Shown piece after piece: positions 24,735 to 63,837 of a stretch of 64,000 nt of DNA; the stretch's first letter is position 1, and the number at the start of each line of letters is the position of its first letter. Origin of the DNA: Sialis fuliginosa. Its lineage: Eukaryota; Arthropoda; Insecta; Megaloptera; Sialidae. Below the pieces are notes generated by a model that saw nothing but the letters and a program-made list of their open reading frames with translations, did no database searches and was not told where the DNA came from. The DNA is taken from positions 11,718,001-11,782,000 of the forward strand of contig OY540820.1 in NCBI GenBank assembly GCA_961205875.1, read 5' to 3'. The translations under genes were made by a program, and so were the position numbers.

Positions 24735-25213
24735 AAATACTGGCACCAGTCTTGGCCGCTTTAAGAGCAAAGTATACTATTTTTAAGGATTGTAACTAAT
24801 AAAACAAGTAACTTTTTTTAAATGATAGCCTTTCATTTTGTTTATTTTATTTTTTCTAGTGATGGATAAAGTAAAACTAGTAATAGGTACACAGTGATGG
24901 ACACTTACTAATGATTACAAAATGATAAGTACTACGACACAAAAGCTATAAAAGAAAGAATCGTAATATTTGAAACAATGTAAAGCAGTTGCTATGATAA
25001 TATGTAAATTACACTAATAATTAGTTTAAATGCTACCATTTTGACACCCATTGGCCGATTGTCATCAAATTAAGTTGTTTTACAATTAAGTGTCTATAGA
25101 ATATTTTTTTCAATAATGGCAGTAGTCAAATATCAGCAAATATTTCTAATTTAATACATTTAATTAAACAAGTATCCAACACTGGGGTATGATCCAAGAC
25201 TGGTGCCAGTACC
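24735..25213 (-). mobile_element. MITE-A copy 3 (inverted)
   Basis: Both ends are present: ACTGGCACCAGTCTTGG on the left and AAGACTGGTGCCAGTACCTTA on the right read in part. The internal landmark appears inverted as CCATTGGCCGATTGTCATC. The order of subterminal motifs shows inverted orientation relative to copies 4, 6 and 7. Confidence 0.75.
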
Positions 25214-27079
25214 TTATCACAGAAGAATAGATTTAATAACAATTTGACATCCTCTCGAGTAAAGCTTATAAATATAAAGCAGAAATATTTTTTTAGAATC
25301 GTGATTGTTTTAAATAAAATCTTAATACTCCCTTAAAATGCAATTGCAATCCAGAAATTTAATTGGAAAATGAAAATGTATATAAATCGTAATACGTAAT
25401 TTTTTACGACCGCTGTTCAAGAATATAACGCGTTGTCGTAGGCTCCATTAACTAAATGAAAGTGCAAGTGGTTCTGCATCGGTGGGGACGTCCTTGACCC
25501 ACTAAAGACCGGTGGTCGGCGGACGACTGAATCAACAAAAATCACAACATGGTCAATTTTTGCATGATTTAATACAAGCGGCAATTTTGAGAGATGAATG
25601 ATCCACCAAATACTTTTTTGGACAATTCATTAATAAGTGTTAATCCATACTTACTCTCTGTTCAAAGTTCCAGAATATATTATTTTATAGTTACAGAAAT
25701 ATTAATATTCGATTACCCCTTCACAACAAAATATTTTTTGGTCTAAACATATTTTTTAAATGTGCGATGATTCTGAGATAATAATTTATTACACTTTAAA
25801 TGCTCCACTCTGTATAAAGTGATTGTTCCCACAGTTTGTTTCGAAAATCAAAACCAAAACACAAATGTCCCTTCAATGCGGACAAAAAGTTTATATTTTT
25901 TAAGATGAGTTCCTTTAATTTGCAAGAGCAAAATCTATTAACATTCATTTACAGAAAGTTCTTGAAAAACTGCAGAAGCTTTAATTGAAAAATATTAAAG
26001 TTTTTTTTTTATGATTTTGCCAATAGCTGTTTATTTCAAAAATTCAGATAAAATTTTATAAATGCTAATGCTTATTTTTTACATTCTTTCGATTCATACT
26101 TTAACACCTTCTCTTTCTTGGCCGCTTCGTTCAACAGTGTACCGCCGTTTTGTAGTACACAAGGCCTTTGGGAATTCCCCATTGATGTGTAGATTCATCA
26201 CATGACTATAATTTAAATTCTTGCATTGTTTTTTTTTACCAACGGATGCAATAACAGTTTCAATGCAATATATACGTAATAATTACCATGAAATAAAACC
26301 TACATTGTTATTGTTTATAAACTCACGTATCTTACAGAAGGTCTCTGTTCGAAAGGGATGATTACAAATATTACAAATCTAAAAAATAATAGACAATAGG
26401 AAATTTTCATAAATTTTTCTCATATTTGCACTAACCTTTTTGCAGCCTCTAACTTTTACTCTTAAAAATACGTATGAAATTTTTTTTATTATACATAACA
26501 ACAGCTAGAGAAGTACGTAGGATTTTTTTGATATATTGATTTTTGGCCGAATGGTGCACTTCCAAAGTCAAACTTACAAAATTCACCAAAAAATAGCTAG
26601 AAAATTGTTAATAACAAATGAACTATGCCATATAAAAAAAAATCCTACGTAATTATTTAGACAATATATTTTTATAGATCAAGTTAAAATTTGAAGTAAA
26701 TTGGTTGAAAATTGTTCGAGTTATGGGTGCGGCCAACTTGAAAAATGCAGTTTTGAGATAAACGCGTTTAGTTGTAAGTTATAGAAAGTCATGAAAAAAT
26801 CTTCTTCCAGATATTTTCAGTCTCTTGCTGTATGTACGTGTCTCTTTTGCACCTTTTTGACCACAATACACTTTGTCACTCATTATAAAAACGAATCAAT
26901 AACATTCACAAAACAAAACAAAAGTTAGCACAATTATCGATAAAAAACAAACCTGGCGGTCTTGTACTATACTTTGAAAAACAAGAACTTTGAGATATCT
27001 CCCGGCCATAATCTTTTCGGATATTATTTTTGAGGTCCTTATTTTTAAATTCTAGAGTGGCCTAACCCCTACGTGATGG
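25214..27079. other. Non-coding stretch with a GC-richer island at 25390-25550
   Basis: Bases 25390-25550 (around GTGGGGACGTCCTTGACCC and GGTGGTCGGCGGACGACTG) are clearly GC-richer and hold several CpGs, but no long open frame on either strand. It could be an untranslated exon or promoter of the channel gene, or a mobile-element fragment. The remainder is AT-rich. Confidence 0.35.
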
Positions 27080-42100: not shown

Positions 42101-42639
42101 TTCCCAGGAAAGTATTAAGTTTATAAATTCCTGGAAATACACATAAACATAAAATACATAAACAAGTTTAGTATAGTATTTTATAAAAAATAGATTTTAT
42201 ATGTCCAAAAATTAAGAATAAAGATTAAAATCTAAATATGATTTATATTCAAAACACATATTGATAACCACGAAAGTCTTGTATCTAACATTAAAATATA
42301 ATATCTTGGAATGTTATATCATTGGTATGCAAGATTAATTTCTAAACCATATACAAGATGGCTAATATGCAAGGAAATCCATTAGACATCTTGATTTTCG
42401 TGTTATATGGGGCGTGCATTCTGATGTCAAAACATCCGTTCAAAGGTATTTACAGACATACCTTCTAATCTAATTAATTGGCTATTATGTAGAGCTATTG
42501 TTTGGCAAATGTTTGCGCTATCTATCGTTGCGAAATAAAATCTATAGACACGGGTAGAACAGATGAACTCAAATTCTTCGACGTTTAGATTAATCAATAC
42601 TAAAATATAAATCTATAGGCTCTATACTCTGTACCAATA

Positions 42640-43207
42640 AGGTACTGGCACCAGTATTGGATATGGCCCCAGTAATGGCTATTTTTTAACTAAATGTACT
42701 GTATTTGAAATATTTGTTGATATTTGATTACTACCATTTCTGAATATTAATATATATACATTTAACTGTCTTACAGCGTGATTTGATGACAATCGGCCAA
42801 TAGGTGTCAAAATGGTGAACGTTTAACCTAATTATTAGTATAATTTATTTATTAATTATTATATTATCATAGCAACTGCTTTACATTGTTTCAAATTTGA
42901 CGATTCTTTCTTTTATATATTTTGTATCGTAGTACTTATCATTTTGTAATGATTAGCATGTGTCCATCACTGCGTGTTCATTACTAGTTTTACTTTATCC
43001 ATTACTGGAGAAAAAACATAAAAAAATAAAAGGCTATAATTTAAAAAATAAACTATATTTGCGGATTTTGGTAATTAAGTTGATTAAATAAAGAGTTACT
43101 TGTTTCATTAGTAAACATGAGTTCATGAGAATTACAAAAAAGAAGCCCGTTAATCACAAAAATAGTAAACCTTGCTCTTATAGCAGCCATAACTGGTGTC
43201 AGTACCT
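42640..43207 (+). mobile_element. MITE-A copy 4 (near full length)
   Basis: Ends AGGTACTGGCACCAG and GGTGTCAGTACCT, both next to TA. The interior has the complete landmark order, including CAATCGGCCAATAGGTGTC and TTGCTCTTATAGCAGCC. This copy is a useful family reference. Confidence 0.8.
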
Positions 43208-43289
43208 TATTTATAAATAGAAAGTTAATTTTTTGAGTCTATACGTATTTTTTTAAAATTTATGTTTAGCTGTTTATTATTTTTTTTTT

Positions 43290-43425
43290 CAAAAATCTTA
43301 TCATTTCTGTTTTTGGGTTATCAGTATTCGTCCATATATCTAAATTGGTCTAAAATTTTTGAGGACGGACGGAAATGGCGAAACTATAAGAGTTCCTAGT
43401 TTTCTACGGAACCCTAAAAAAACAA
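43290..43425. mobile_element. Fragment of the AGGGTTCCGTA repeat family
   Basis: TCTTATCATTTCTGTTTTTG, a GGACGGACGG stretch and CTACGGAACCCTAAAAAA match the right half of the element at 53181-53690. Confidence 0.55.
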
Positions 43426-43564
43426 CTTAATTTTTGACAATTGAAGCTGTACGTTCTAATATAAGTCTCAAGGCATATTAGAAGTACACAAAGTAGTTGC
43501 TGCAAATTTAAATACAAGTTTATAGACATATTCAGTCATTGTCTTTTTAAATCGTTTGCTACGT

Positions 43565-49545: not shown

Positions 49546-51292
49546 TGCTAGTATTTTATATATCATATTTCTAAAAATATAACAATCTGTTTTATTACTT
49601 ATTCTCATTCTGTTTGCCTATTTTCTAATAAAGGGAATTGCTCGTTTTGTCTTCTGAACGATCACATATGCAGGAAAATACATAAATTGTAGCAAGCGAA
49701 GTAATGCCAATAATATTATCTGTAGTGCAAATATTTCATTTTATAAAAGTGTGCTCTAAATTGCATCGTATCTTCACTTTACTGTATTTGCTTTCAATCA
49801 GTCTGAATAGATCTATTATTGCAAGTTGAAATATATATTGTTTTTTTTTACAAAAATAATAATTTCTCGACTGGTTCAAGGTTTCAATGCAATTACTTAT
49901 TATTCCAATTTAGTTTTTGCAAATTATATTTATAAATTGAAATCTTACGGTTTAGTACAACTCACCGCGAGTTCAATTCAAAATCCTTTTTCTCTGTACC
50001 CCCTTTAAAAGCCATTATTAGGTTCTTAGGTATATTTTATTAGATATTTTGTGGGGAGCTCCGCCTCCGCCCTCTAGCCCCTAAAATGCCATTAGTTATA
50101 TAGGAATATTTGTTTTGATCTTTTACCCCTCTTTAACGTTATTATTGAACTATTTGCCTCTTCTGTAACGACCAGTATATTATATTAGATCTAACGCGGG
50201 GGGCTATGTCCCCTGCATTCCCTTTAATGCTAGAAGTAATATAGTATATATATGTATATATAGATTATTATTAGAATAATTACAAAGCTCAATTCAAGCT
50301 TTTGCAGTTTTTTTTTGATATGAACCATTAAAAAAAAAAAAAATTCCACTTCTTCGACTAGCACCTAAGGAGTGCATGGTTATTTTAATAAAATAAAAAA
50401 CAATAAAAAAATAATAAAAAAAATAAAATTAATTTTTAATCCCGACATTCCTTTACTTCTATTATTCCTTACACGTGAGTGCGTATATATCTATACACAT
50501 TGCGAGTGTGTGTACGTGGGTGTTTGTATGTATTGTCCGTCTGTTCGGGCGCTCGTTCGCTGTTGTTTATTTTTAGTGTATCGAGACTACATTTCCATCT
50601 ATTTTTGCCTGTTTGTATCATACGTCAATATGTGTGCGTCTGCATGCGTGTGTATGTAAAACATATGAAATAGATAATAATACTACTGGAACCTAGAGAG
50701 AACATTCACAAAGTTTGCATATATCTATTGTAATAAAGCAAAATACATATTGAATCAAACAGCTTTGACAAGAAAAATCTAACAATAAAATTTTATAATA
50801 AAACTATACTATTTTCTGAGTGAAGTCATACTAGATAGTTGATAGTAAAAGGCGAGAATCAACAAAACAGAAAACTTATAATAGAAAATAAGATCTTTTT
50901 ATAAGGTAGGTATTGTATGTAAATAAACAAAAATCAATATTATTAATAAGTGAACAATCCTGTACATATGCAAAATGACAACCTGTACGTTTTGTTTGGA
51001 TACAATATAAAGCATGTATGTATGTGTATTGTGTATACACATATGTATATATTCAGTATGCAGCAGATAGATAAACATTCATAATGTAAATATTACATAC
51101 AACATAGTGCATTTTCCATATTGACTAGAGTATATCGCATTCGTTTGTGAACGCTAGTCTAGATGATGTAAAAATCTAATTTTAATCCAGCTTTGTTGTC
51201 AACAGGGCTGTCAATTGTGTGTCGATACGTGCATTTTTATTTCAGGGTTTATATTGTTGTTTTTATTGATAAACGATATTACAAAACAATTA
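49546..51292. other. Non-coding stretch with TG/TATG microsatellites
   Basis: Bases 50480-50660 and 51010-51050 are TG/TATG/CGTGTG-rich microsatellite. The overlapping open frames there are translations of the microsatellite. Nothing else stands out. Confidence 0.45.
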
Positions 51293-51825
51293 AGGTAGTG
51301 GCACCAATCATGGCAAGGACCCCAAAAATGGCAAATTTTTAATTAAATACACTGAATTAAAAATATGTGTTGATATTTTGATTACTACCATTTCTGAATA
51401 TTAATCTATATACATATAACTATCTTGCAGCGTGATTTGATGACAATCGGTCAATAGGTGTCAAAATGGTGGACATTATATATTAATTATTATTATATTA
51501 TCATAGCAACTGCTTTACATTGTTTCAAATTTGACGATTCTTTCATTTATATCTTTTGTGTCGTAGTACTTATCATTTTGTAATCAGTGTCACTGCGTGC
51601 TCTTTACTGGTTTTACCTTTGCCATTACTGGAGAAAAACATGAACAAAATAAAAGGTTATAATTTAAAAAACAAACTATATTTGCGGACTTTGGTATTCC
51701 ATTGAATAAATAAAGAGTTACTTGTTTTATTAGTAACATGCGTTCATGAGAGTTACAAAAACAAGCCCATAGTTAAAAAAAACGAAAACTTGCTCTTATA
51801 GCGGCCATAACTGGTGCATTTACCT
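51293..51825 (+). mobile_element. MITE-A copy 6
   Basis: Ends AGGTAGTGGCACCAATCATG and CTGGTGCATTTACCT, flanked by TA on both sides. It contains GACAATCGGTCAATAGGTG and TTGCTCTTATAGCGGCC. Only 80 bp separate it from the larger related element at 51906. Confidence 0.75.
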
Positions 51826-52659
51826 TACACCGTTTAATAAAGAGAAGATATTCTTCTTCTTCTTGTTACCTTTTCAGACAGCTCATTTTTGTTTGTATTT
51901 ATGTAAGGTAAAGTACCCAGTTATGGCACAACGCGAAAAACAGCGGCTATTGTGGAACACACGTATATTAATCAATTTTAATAATATTCATACTTCGTTT
52001 TGCGTACTAAAAAAATTTACCTAGTGTCATTAAACCTTTTAATTTAACTATAGTACTAAAAATCAAAGTATTATTTAAATATAAATAGTCGAAAAAAATT
52101 ATTTTATTATAGCCTACATAAAAGTTGGTATTCACTGACATGTTTATCACAAATGTAGTGATTTGTACAGTTCACTGTTTTGATGTAATTCTTAATATTT
52201 CAAGTATTTTACGATATAAATAATAGTTCAAATTGTAGGTAAGTCTTTAATAAATGATATGATATAATTATTTCATAGATTTAAGTAAAGTCATTATTGA
52301 TAAATACATGTTTCTTTATAGGAACGTTGAATGTCATTATTAACCAATATATGAAACAACCGAAATGCTTGTGCCTGGAGTGGGACTTTTTCAATCATCT
52401 GTTGGAACGTATTGTTTGCAACTAATTTGTGTCATTATCGTATTATTTCTGTATTTGAATTATTATTTTATCATCAAAGTGGTGTGATCAATCAATATTC
52501 ATGCATTTTATTTAAGAATATACGAAATAGGTGAGTGAAATAAAGTAAAAACCTAACCTCAAAATATTACCTGTCAATAATATTTATAATTTAATCCTAT
52601 ACTTATATTTGTTTTAGCAATGAAAACTAGAAAAATAAAGAGTATTAATCAAAATAAAT

Positions 52660-53180
52660 AAATAAAAAAATAAAATTAGAAGGAAAAATAGTACATCTAA
52701 AACGATTCAGTGTCAGCTGTCACATTATTAAGAAAGGAAATGTTTTGAATTCTTCAAAGGCGAAAGAATTGATTGAAATAACAAATGTTCTAGTATAAAC
52801 TGGACTAGATAGATTAAAATTACCATCTTAACCTCTCCGAGGTATGTACGATGAAAGATACAGAAACTTTACAATGCAAAATAATGAAAACGCATTTGAT
52901 CAAATTATCACAGTGGTTACCAAAGAATCAATATATTATTATGAAGAAGGTGTTACAAAGACACTTAATGATCCCTTAATTGTATTCGATGGTAGGTACT
53001 GATTGTTTGAATTAATTAATTAATTAATGTTGAATATTTATCTATATTATTTATAATTCTAGATATAATTGATTTACAACATAATGAAATTACCATCGTA
53101 ACAATTGCAAGAAGAGAAACGAATGATTAGCTGAAAAAAATAAAGAATTTGAAGAACAAATGAAACAATTAAAAAAATAA
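52660..53180 (+). pseudogene. Fossil transposon gene, last two exons
   Basis: One frame reads KLEGKIVHLKRFSVSCHIIK, SSKAKELIEITNVLV, stop, TGLDRLKLPS, stop, PLRGMYDERYRNFTMQNN, IITVVTKESIYYYEEGVTK and LNDPLIVFD, and reaches a donor G|GTAGGT at 52992. A T-rich acceptor (AATTCTAG, ending 53062) follows after 71 bp and continues in phase: DIIDLQHNEITIVTIARRE. After one frameshift near 53125 comes LAEKNKEFEEQMKQLKK and TAA, a short coiled-coil-like tail. Two stops and a frameshift make it dead. I recognise no catalytic motif or family, so it may represent an undescribed transposon protein. Confidence 0.6.
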
Positions 53181-53690
53181 AACGGCCAAGTGCATGTTCG
53201 GTACGCACATGATGGGTTCCGTAGTCATTATGATTTGTAAAAAAGTTATTTCAAAATTTTTCATAAACTATTTTTGCTACAGTGTTTGTTATAATTAAAA
53301 GCTACATTCTGGATTTTTTTCAGATTTTTTGAATTGATAGTTTAGTTAGCTCTGACAACGACATTTAAAAGAAAATAATTCATGACTGGAGGGTTAAAAT
53401 TAAAATATAACATACTTTATTGCATTTTAGGAGACCTATCTAAAGACACCCCACCTAACGGATTAAGTGAAATTTTTTTTAAATATACTTTTCAGTCTAT
53501 GAGAAGGGGGTCCAAATAATTTTTTTTTTTCAATAATCTTATCATTTCTGTTTTTGGGTTATCAGTCTTCGTCCGTATACCAAATTTCATTTTAATCGGT
53601 ATAAAATTTATATAGACAGACAGATTGACAGAGCGAAACTATAAGGTTTCGTAGTTTTCTACGAAACCCTAAAAATTAAGCAAGAAACTT
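53181..53690 (+). mobile_element. AGGGTTCCGTA-type repeat inserted in the fossil transposon
   Basis: It starts AAAACGGCCAAGTGCATG, then GGGTTCCGTAG; later TTCTGTTTTTGGGTTATCAG, a GACAGACAGATTGACAGA tail and TTTCTACGAAACCCTAAAAA. Repeats with this opening and the inverse GGGTTCCGTA ending are widespread in insects. It sits directly behind the fossil gene's stop codon, so it postdates the host element. Confidence 0.6.
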
Positions 53691-54902
53691 AATTTTTCAT
53701 AAACTTTGTTACCTTATTTTTAATATTTTATATTTTTCATATAGGTACAGCCAATTCTGTTTTCAAACAAATTTTTTTTACACGATTTTGAAGAAGCACG
53801 GTCGATAACAATAAAAAACTTTTTTTTATGCGTACTGATTTGATTTTACATGATCCATTTATTCTAAATCACTGTAAAATTTATACAATTTATTATTTTC
53901 ATACAATGAAGTTCTTTTTCTTGTTAAATTTTAAATTAATAGGCTGAACGTATCGTGAGAAAACAGAATTGGGTGTATTAAATTTGTATATTTAAATTTT
54001 ATAACTTTATATTATTGATATTTATATTTTATTATGATTTATAACATTTAAAAAATTTAATAAAGTTCTGCTTAAGATTAATGTATGTTAATGATGTTTT
54101 CAAATTATTTTTCTTATTTCCTTTCATCATTAATATTATTTTAGGTGCATTTCCAATAAAAATAAAAATCTAATATTTTAAATCCAATTAATATTACTGA
54201 TACACTGCTTGTCACAATTAGTGGGAGACTTTTTGAATGGAACAGTTTTGTTAAAAATTGTCATTAATATGAAATTTCAGAAAAATCATTAATGTGGTGT
54301 TGTCTCAAAGTCCAAGAAATAACAACTTTGTACGTTAATCACTCCAACCCCAATTTATTACAATTAATTCGAAGGACACAGGTAAAGATAAAACTGTGAA
54401 ATTTACAAACTGGGTAGTAAACCCTGTATACAAAGGTACTGTATATTAAAAATTTAAAATAAATTATAAGGGTAAGAATCAACCCTTAAATACTAAACCG
54501 TCTTCAATAGTAGAATAGAAGATTGAATTCAAGTGTAATTTTATAAAAAAAATCAATGAAAGCGGTTGATTTAATTATTTAAAATCAATAAAATTATAAA
54601 AATCAATGGAAAAATAACTTATAGAAGAAAAACTACTGTTCCATATTAGGTGAATGAATTATGGAACATAGGTGCCAATGCAAAAATCTTGTTTCATAAT
54701 AGTGGACATTAGTTCATTCACTTTTTTTTTTATATCATGAAAAATATTATATTTATTTGAGTTTTGTAAGTATGACGTTATAGAGGAAACATAGGCCCAT
54801 CAAATAATGTATTACAATGTTCCATTTAATAACTTATAGATTTTTTATATGAGCGCAAAAAAAAGGTGTGGAAAAATCGTTCCATAACTGGGTACTTTAC
54901 CT

Positions 54903-56189
54903 TATGTGTTATGTAGTGATGTTTTTGTTGGGGGTACATTGGGACAAACAAGGTGACCATGAAACAGGGGAGTTGGGGGGAGGGTTAACATGTTTTTTTT
55001 ATCATGTATTACATATATTTTATATTTTAATTTCGGTTTCTTTTAGGAATTACATGATATGTTTGTATGACGATGGGTTCTCTAATAATTCTTTTACTGA
55101 TTGTATTGACTTGTTTTTGATATTTTCTTTGAGGGTGTTATTACATGTGCAGTGAAGAGTAGATATGAAAAGTAATTTTATCTTAATAAATTATTAACGT
55201 AATTATTATAAATCATAAATTATAAACGTCGTTGTATATATTTCATTAACCACTGACATCTATATATTTGTTTTGGGGGGAAAAAGTGCTTTTATTTTTA
55301 TTTTAATAAAGAGAATATAATACTTAAAGAAAATTTTCCTTAACAAGTTTATGATTCTATAGTAATAAATGAAATTATAAAAGGATGGGCAACTGGGTAT
55401 AAAAATATTGTGTTGTTTCAAGAAAACATCAAGAGTTAAAATGTTTTTTTTTAAACAGGGGTAACAGAATTTAATAAAATATTTGTTTGTTCAATTTTAT
55501 AGCTTAGACAGAGTCTTTCAGCGTAAAATCAAATAATTATTGTTCAATTTAAATTACATACGTTCTCCGATAATGATCATTATTCGTCAAATATTTTACA
55601 AATTGTCTCAGTTGCAAGCTAGAAAAGTCAAACTATTTAATGTTGGTAAGAGCACATGTTAGTATAAAACCCGGGATTTCACCCTTGTCCCCTGGGCCTC
55701 GCGAGTGTCACCTGCTTTGACAACCCTTGGGAAACATCCCTTCCATCCGTACTTCACGTCTAGTATGACAATTAATGTCTATAAAAAAATATTGGTCAGT
55801 TTGAACATCCCTAAAACGTTGAGTTATATAATAGTTTCTTTGTTGTTTATTGTAAACTTACTCTTAATAAATATTAAAATTTCAAGCAGTTTTTTTTTAA
55901 TTCTATTTTTATGTAGTACCTACATTATACATATAAGTTATAAATTTTTATTTTTTTAAAACTTTGTGAAATATTAGGTACTTCAGTTAAAGTAAAATTT
56001 AATGAAATATTTTTTTGTAAAAATAACCTTCATATGACTTTCTTATTATAATCATTTGTGTATTCAAGAGATTATAAATAAACATTATTCAGTACAAGAC
56101 GAGGTAAGTTTTGTCTCGTCTGGTGCTGCCCTAGTAATTGCATAAAATTTTGAAGAAATGTTTTTATAAATACTGGTAGTAACACTGAA
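54903..56189. other. Non-coding stretch
   Basis: AT-rich; frames at 54868-55155 and 55705-55959 are hydrophobic and Phe/Ile/Leu-rich as expected from T-rich DNA. A hairpin AAGACGAGGTAAGTTTTGTC followed by TCGTCT lies at 56095-56125 and recurs at 58346-58378. Confidence 0.45.
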
Positions 56190-62003: not shown

Positions 62004-63300
62004 CATAGTACTATAGCAGAGATTTTCTGACTGACTGCATTGATTTTTAAATGGCTTTAATTAAAATTTTTGGTTATTTTATGTAAGTATGTATTTCAAT
62101 TCTTTATCTTGATTCTTTGCCTTTCTGAAGACGTCTCGGCTAAGAATTTGAAAAGTACTATTTATTATGTAAAGCTATCAAGTTTCTTGGTTGATGGTGT
62201 GCGAACAAGTACAATTATTCCAATAACAGTATAAATAACGATTATAAGTTATAATAAATAGACTTTAAATGTCTTAAATCTGTCACAAACCTACCAACGG
62301 TACTGTCGTTAAATCACATTTTAATAATTGAATGTGTGTAACTGAGTAAGTTTGCCAAAGGATTTTCTGTGTGTTTGTTCAGATATAAAGAGAACAACTA
62401 TTAATTATGCTGATTTGTCAGAGAGATCAAACGTCCAGCCATTGATCGAACAATAAAAACCGAAATAAACCGCCACGGTTTGATTTGAAAAGCCAGACGT
62501 TCGTTTTTTATTGTTCGTTTGTTTAAAATGCCGTACAGTTTTATGATTGCTGTTAAAAAAGACTGGGAGTCGATTTTATAATAATATATACATACTCGTA
62601 TATGTTCTTATTCTTTCTCTTTCTTATAAACATTTTCAAACTTTCTACTTGTAATTTTTCAACTGGATGTACATTTTTTGTAGTACATATATCTTTTTAT
62701 ACAACATATAATATATTTTATAATTTACAACTACACAAATTAGCTTTTACAACTGCAGTTTTAATTTTTAGAACTGCAGAAACAAGCTACAACTACACAC
62801 TAAAATAACGCCTGGTTTGTTAGTAATATGTATAAATGAAATAAAAATGCGGGTTCATTTTAGTTTTAGGGGTTACGTATATAATATATCTTATTTTATC
62901 ACAAATGTGAATGCAATATACGGTACTTGTATTATTATTATATCTGTTTATGTATATGTATTCTAAAATTAGAAAATTACATTACAAACATTTTCGAGAT
63001 TAAGGGCGAACTATTGTTTATAAACAAAACAAACTAATGTATTCAAATTGCAACCCTTTGTTTCTGGTATGCATCTATAATCCATCAATCTAACATTAAT
63101 TAACCTCGGATTCTAACTATCCCATGAATTTACAAATGTAATGTAATGTAATGTAGAATGAAGATTGTAGATTTTAGGAAAATTAGATCAAAATTCTATT
63201 ATCTATATTCTATGTATAACTATGGCTAGGAAATTTATATTACTAAATTAATTGAGTTTTTTGAGAATTAAAAAAAAAACGTGGAATTAATTTTACAATA
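62004..63300. other. Non-coding stretch
   Basis: A small inverted pair around 62448-62512 (CGAACAATAAAAA / TTTTTATTGTTCG) and an ATGTA pentanucleotide run at 63137-63156. The frame at 62602-62808 is T-rich and not convincing. Confidence 0.4.
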
Positions 63301-63837
63301 AGGTACTTGCACTAGTCTTGGATATGACCCCTGTAATAGCTATTTTTTAATTAAATGTACCGAATTAGAAATATTTGTTTATATTTGATTACTACCATTT
63401 CTGAATATGAATCTATATACATTTAACTGTCTTACAGCGTGATTTGATGACAATCGGCCAATAGGTGTCAAAATAGTGGACATTAGTATGATTTATTTAG
63501 CAACTGCTTTACATTGTTTCGTTGACATTTCTTTCTTTTATATATTTTGTGTCATAGTACTTATCATTTTGTAATCATTAGCAAGTGTGTCCATCACTGC
63601 GTGCTTATTACTTGTTTTACTTTAACCATATTACTGGAGAAAAAACATAAACAAAATAAAATGTTATAATTTAAAATAACAAACTATATTTTTGGACTTT
63701 GGTAATTAAATTGATTAAATATAATGTTACTCGTTTTATTAGTAACATGAGTTCATGAAAATTATAAAAACGAAGCCCGTAAATAACAAAAACAGTAAAC
63801 TTTGCTCTTATAACGGCCATAACTGGTGGCAGTACCT
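63301..63837 (+). mobile_element. MITE-A copy 7, with 10-bp flanking direct repeats
   Basis: Ends AGGTACTTGCACTAGTCTTG and ACTGGTGGCAGTACCT. The exact 10-mer TTTTACAATA abuts both ends (63291-63300 and 63838-63847), unlike the plain TA of other copies. The interior has the family order, including CAATCGGCCAATAGGTGTC. Confidence 0.75.

Follow-up and report, generated by a model that had tools for sequence, protein, structure and literature searches.

A young TA-flanked DNA transposon family of Sialis fuliginosa and its relation to MITE-A

The element at positions 51906–54902 of the window, a 64,000-nucleotide stretch of contig OY540820.1 of Sialis fuliginosa, is one copy of a young, recently mobile DNA transposon family, as is evident from its ends, its TA flanks, its copy number and the recency of its spread. 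We consider it likely that this is a young non-autonomous cut-and-paste family which relies on a transposase encoded at another locus for its movement in trans and uses TA as its target; the superfamily suggested by ends and target is probably IS630-Tc1-mariner.

Structure of the element and its copies in the genome

The 2997-bp unit is bounded by 21-bp inverted ends, which match each other without a mismatch (left TIR AGGTAAAGTACCCAGTTATGG, 51906–51926, plus strand; right TIR, 54882–54902, minus strand). A TA dinucleotide lies outside each end (51904–51905 and 54903–54904). Shuffled controls for the 21-bp end gave a mean of 0.00 matches with three mismatches allowed, and the TA-flanked transposon proposed in the initial annotation is thus well founded. 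The left interior (51927–52657) contains no recognised coding sequence, and a six-frame translation of L010, a related copy, had no match to Pfam at E values of up to 1. It is followed by a putative fossil gene (52658–53180, plus strand). Further downstream are a nested repeat with bounds set by eye (53185–53676), part of which recurs at window positions 43280–43435 (77%, blastn), a nested TA-flanked palindromic MITE (53748–53975, with 19-bp inverted arms at 53746–53764 and 53959–53977), and the right interior (53976–54881), which includes a TIR-like stretch at 54408–54423.

The search with the TIR pair, which had been proposed as a check, covered the window's own genome (392 Mb, 20 contigs). 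With up to two mismatches, the 21-mer end was present at 75 + 77 sites, compared to 0 + 0 for the reversed control; the first 100 of these sites were listed and all of them were exact. With up to three mismatches over 31 nt, 57 left-type and 60 right-type ends were detected. Pairing of each end with its nearest partner within 13 kb resulted in 53 end pairs across 14 contigs, and four left and seven right ends stayed unpaired. The pair length was 2953–3008 bp in 31 cases and 3279–3347 bp in 15; of the remaining seven pairs, two fell below these lengths (1881 and 2653 bp) and five exceeded them (4840, 5656, 6731, 7245, and 11650 bp). Full-length reading comprised 21 of the 53 pairs, namely 20 copies picked from the listed exact end pairs and the window copy, and all 21 are flanked by TA on both sides. 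TA was also found outside four of the five unpaired ends that were read (L007, L008, and L082–L084), the exception being L007, which has AG directly outside where TA is expected.

The full copies of the 3.0-kb subgroup (n = 11) deviate from their majority sequence by 0.07–0.27%. Pairwise, they differ by 0.36% on average and by 0.53% at most. The mean divergence of 0.19% from the majority therefore indicates a recent spread. Four of the 3.3-kb copies (L010, L015, L019, and L023) share 95.2–97.6% identity with the window copy in the aligned parts, and a fifth (L024) shares 90.4–98.1%.

Of the five longer spans, the four that were read (L020, L027, L018, and L012) all owe their length to insertions. 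L020 (7245 bp) and L027 (5656 bp) carry one LINE at the same insertion site. In L020, the main frame of this LINE encodes a reverse transcriptase domain (E 2.3e-37) and an endonuclease domain (E 2.1e-6), and approximately 1.6 kb of the LINE is missing in L027. Identity between L020 and L027 amounts to 99.37% across 2049 positions and to 99.95% across 3607, but their flanks are unrelated, with a separate TA at each. The common LINE site, the near identity of the copies and the unrelated TA flanks argue for movement of the LINE composite as a unit; the simplest account, strongly suggested by this comparison, is that a single LINE landed in the element and that the composite then transposed. Among the non-autonomous Tc1/mariner elements of Heliconius, PMC4016481 reports a composite that continued to move with a SINE inside it. 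The insertion in L018 contains a frame with a THAP domain (E 2.3e-8). A very young family of such long non-autonomous elements is useful for the study of movement in trans and of cargo carriage, as with the LINE in two of its copies.

Relation to MITE-A and superfamily assignment

The element had been regarded as a possible parent of MITE-A, a family represented in the window by the copy at 51291–51827 (including its TAs) and by others. The resemblance of the ends, on which this idea was based, was confirmed: the MITE-A end at 2952–2972 matches the element's end at 18 of 21 positions (three mismatches) and has TA flanks, and both families display the motif AGGTA...CCA...TGG. MITE-A-type ends with TA are located in the window at 2952–2974, 25194–25216, 42638–42660, 51291–51313, 51805–51827, and 63299–63321. 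The degenerate motif AGGTAAAGNNNCCAGTTATGG had 694 + 776 matches in the genome, including the element's own family, and its reversed control had 0 + 0, which agrees with the earlier suggestion of many non-autonomous members with such ends.

Apart from the end motif and the TA flanks, the two families are different. MITE-A is approximately 0.5 kb long, its interior and subterminal sequences are not those of the element, and its copies appear more diverged by eye. Its left ends also follow another pattern (near AGGTA[CG]TGGCACCA..C.TGG). A blastn comparison of the element with the rest of the window and with L079, a 2.5-kb MITE-A-like element, gave nine matches, none of which coincided with a MITE-A copy in the window or fell in L079; the 21-bp ends themselves are below the reach of this search. 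Deletion derivatives should share the subterminal sequence of their parent, yet none was found, so the parent reading is not supported. That MITE-A is a direct internal-deletion product of the element is hardly credible despite the agreement at 2952–2972, as the left-end patterns differ as well and no copy was seen in which the subterminal sequences of both families are joined. Judged by their ends, the element and MITE-A look like siblings and not like parent and offspring. The MITE-A-like element of L079 (114–2625) contains degenerate internal repeats and gave no Pfam match.

For the element, which has no recognisable transposase of its own, we propose that both 21-bp ends would be recognised in trans and that the unit, once excised, would integrate at a TA and duplicate it. 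MITE-A, as a separate family, would use the same end type, and because this end type is common to both, a single transposase lineage probably serves, or once served, the two families. The identity of the transposase for this family would therefore probably classify MITE-A, too. Duplication of a TA is suggestive of the IS630-Tc1-mariner superfamily, for which a TA target and TIRs are given as traits in PMC7325037. Both traits are present in the family, the TA duplication in 21 of 21 read copies (the unpaired end L007 lacks the TA) and the inverted repeats as the perfect 21-bp TIR. We infer the cut-and-paste mode, the movement in trans and the superfamily; among the matches listed in the searches described below, no transposase was seen between such ends. 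Among the closest known systems are the non-autonomous Tc1/mariner elements of insects, such as nMar-16_Hm of Heliconius (PMC4016481), which likewise are recently amplified non-autonomous DNA elements. Compared to non-autonomous Tc1/mariner elements of insects, the element is long (approximately 3 kb), and its ends are unlike the CAGT-type ends of the Tc1-like loci L086 and L087.

The family could instead belong to the PHIS superfamily (Harbinger, ISL2EU) and have an unusual target, which we regard as improbable. Open frames of DDE_Tnp_4 type are numerous in the genome and some of YqaJ type are present, short TIRs and AT-rich targets are common to ISL2EU, PIF/Harbinger and the element, and Harbinger ends mostly start with A or G according to PMC4482050. 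However, that paper gives AT (ISL2EU) and TWA (PIF/Harbinger) as the PHIS targets, whereas the duplication is TA in all 21 read copies. The flank and the first base of the end read TAA on the left and TTA on the right around GGTAAAG, so that only TA is repeated directly and the 3-bp TWA duplication of PIF/Harbinger is absent; the AT duplication within an A|AT|T target that defines ISL2EU is absent, too. The DDE_Tnp_4 and YqaJ domains expected between ISL2EU ends were not detected in the six frames of L010, which carries little weight for a non-autonomous member. In addition, a scan of 30 DDE_Tnp_4 loci (approximately 1.5 kb on each side, up to four mismatches) revealed a similar end in L064 only, and this end belongs to the neighbouring 2.5-kb MITE-A-like element in L079, so L064 was rejected as an autonomous partner.

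The putative fossil gene at 52658–53180

The initial annotation described a decayed two-exon gene within the element. The first exon-like frame (52658–52991) is interrupted by two TAA stops and is followed by an intron-like GT...AG interval (52992–53062). The second exon-like stretch (53063–53180) runs into an in-frame TAG, and a change to the neighbouring frame is required for the charged end that stops at 53178–53180. In the copies L010 and L024, approximately 44 extra bases are located within the corresponding stretch.

In a sequence this rich in A+T, the low-stop span of the region is unremarkable. Over six frames, the longest span with up to two stops in the window element comprises 114 codons, a value that was reached by 214 of 300 dinucleotide shuffles; the corresponding maxima of L010 and L024 were reached by 171 and 115 of 300. 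For spans free of stops, 292 (window), 31 (L010), and 31 (L024) of 300 shuffles attained the observed value, and the stop-free frame of 98 codons in L010 differs from the proposed gene, as it runs along the minus strand. The codon periodicity in the first exon-like frame is suggestive. The codon-phase bias of the element peaks at this frame (19.4; reached by 7 of 2000 local shuffles), the maximum was matched somewhere by 27 of 200 whole-element shuffles, and 2.6% of 1062 windows across the 64 kb have a bias of this size. No such bias was present in the second stretch (427 of 1000 shuffles). Substitutions at the first, second, and third codon position numbered 2, 3, and 4 (window–L010) and 3, 3, and 7 (window–L024) in the first stretch, and 0, 0, and 0 and 1, 6, and 1, respectively, in the second. 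No clear excess at third positions was thus seen between the subgroups, a comparison which covers evolution after decay only.

A protein search of the genome with the putative protein yielded 157 matches, and those listed lie within the family except for two weak ones on contig C13. One of these (1467738, E 4.5e-4; sequence L085) was set aside because it appeared palindromic by eye, and the other (319581, E 0.0034) lies close to C13:321084, where a left end of divergent sequence was detected. Among the matches listed, none has an unbroken frame across the putative protein, and the stop-free ones are partial. The putative protein had no match among PDB sequences, NCBIfam or viral contigs. Against Pfam, one query gave nothing above the cut-off, with negligible scores below it (Fib_alpha, E 0.058; DDR1-2_DS-like, E 0.1), and the second query set gave no match at all; the initial annotation was thus right that the protein-like stretch is not recognised by any family model. 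The single-sequence structure model (pLDDT 32.8) was uninformative. RNA families were not detected at E up to 0.1.

A gene at 52658–53180 is therefore described here as possible. The GT...AG interval and the codon periodicity speak for the earlier two-exon description, whereas the chance-length low-stop span and the frame change speak against it. If the element were a decayed autonomous transposon, this region would be what is left of a transposase or accessory protein that is as yet undescribed. Such a remnant would fit the codon-phase bias, which is the strongest in the element, the intron-like interval, the charged end, and the lack of any counterpart in NCBIfam or PDB, with no more than two negligible scores in Pfam. 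We nevertheless consider it unlikely, as the low-stop span is no longer than expected by chance, the second stretch can be read through to its charged end only if the frame shifts, third positions show no clear excess between subgroups in the evolution after decay, none of the listed matches spans the frame without a stop, and the structure model is meaningless. Somewhat less probable still is the wider proposal that the AGGTA...CCA...TGG ends define an undescribed TA-targeting group in this lineage with its own transposase, a small accessory protein (the fossil at 52658–53180) and at least two large non-autonomous families.

Search for the transposase

For the preferred reading of a family moved in trans, an autonomous partner with these ends was sought in the same genome by comparisons with DDE_Tnp_4 (146 matches; 150 scored out of 189 candidates), YqaJ (16 matches), DDE_3 (150 matches; 150 scored out of 454 candidates), and DDE_1 (100 matches among 137 candidates), and none was found among the matches listed. 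The listed matches and the ends were compared by eye, and the list for AGGTAAAGNNNCCAGTTATGG covered part of contig C1. A Tc1/mariner-type DDE/D transposase was not detected in L010, and no partner of this type was seen when the DDE_3 hits (150 of the 454 candidates) and the DDE_1 hits were compared by eye with the ends listed. Two intact Tc1-like elements (L086 and L087) were dismissed as partners on account of their CAGT-type ends, and a third Tc1-like element, L088, which like these two has a long frame, displays no clear ends. No match among those listed was seen by eye inside the 11.65-kb span on C14. Inward of the 11 unpaired ends, the closest match noticed by eye was a DDE_Tnp_4 fragment at C1:36895487, which is separated by approximately 9.5 kb from the unpaired end at C1:36905231. 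The copies outside the set that was read may include an autonomous member; these are the 11.65-kb copy (C14:1933990–1945639) and several divergent relatives, located around C13:318900–321110 and C8:19853200–19856240, from C14:6459185 onwards, and at C11:5045525–5047405.

Other candidates were rejected. L007 and L008 have only 76 bp in common with the window element, at the right end; their region contains repeated LRR-like genes (named by eye), and an apparent protein in it is part of an inverted repeat that recurs in L083. L082 and L084 proved to be copies that had been rearranged or had diverged. The two end patterns had no exact match in viral contigs, and six TIR strings had none in the literature searched, which carries little weight, as such strings are mostly placed in supplements or repeat databases.

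In L080 and L081, LRR-like frames (by eye) recur approximately 12 kb apart, beside two terminal fragments of the element's family. L068–L078 contain DDE_Tnp_4 open frames of approximately 173–176 amino acids, which belong to a family with long inverted, repeated copies. Many of the listed DDE_Tnp_4, YqaJ, DDE_3, and DDE_1 matches appear, by eye, in the section of contig C14 between approximately 2 and 8 Mb.
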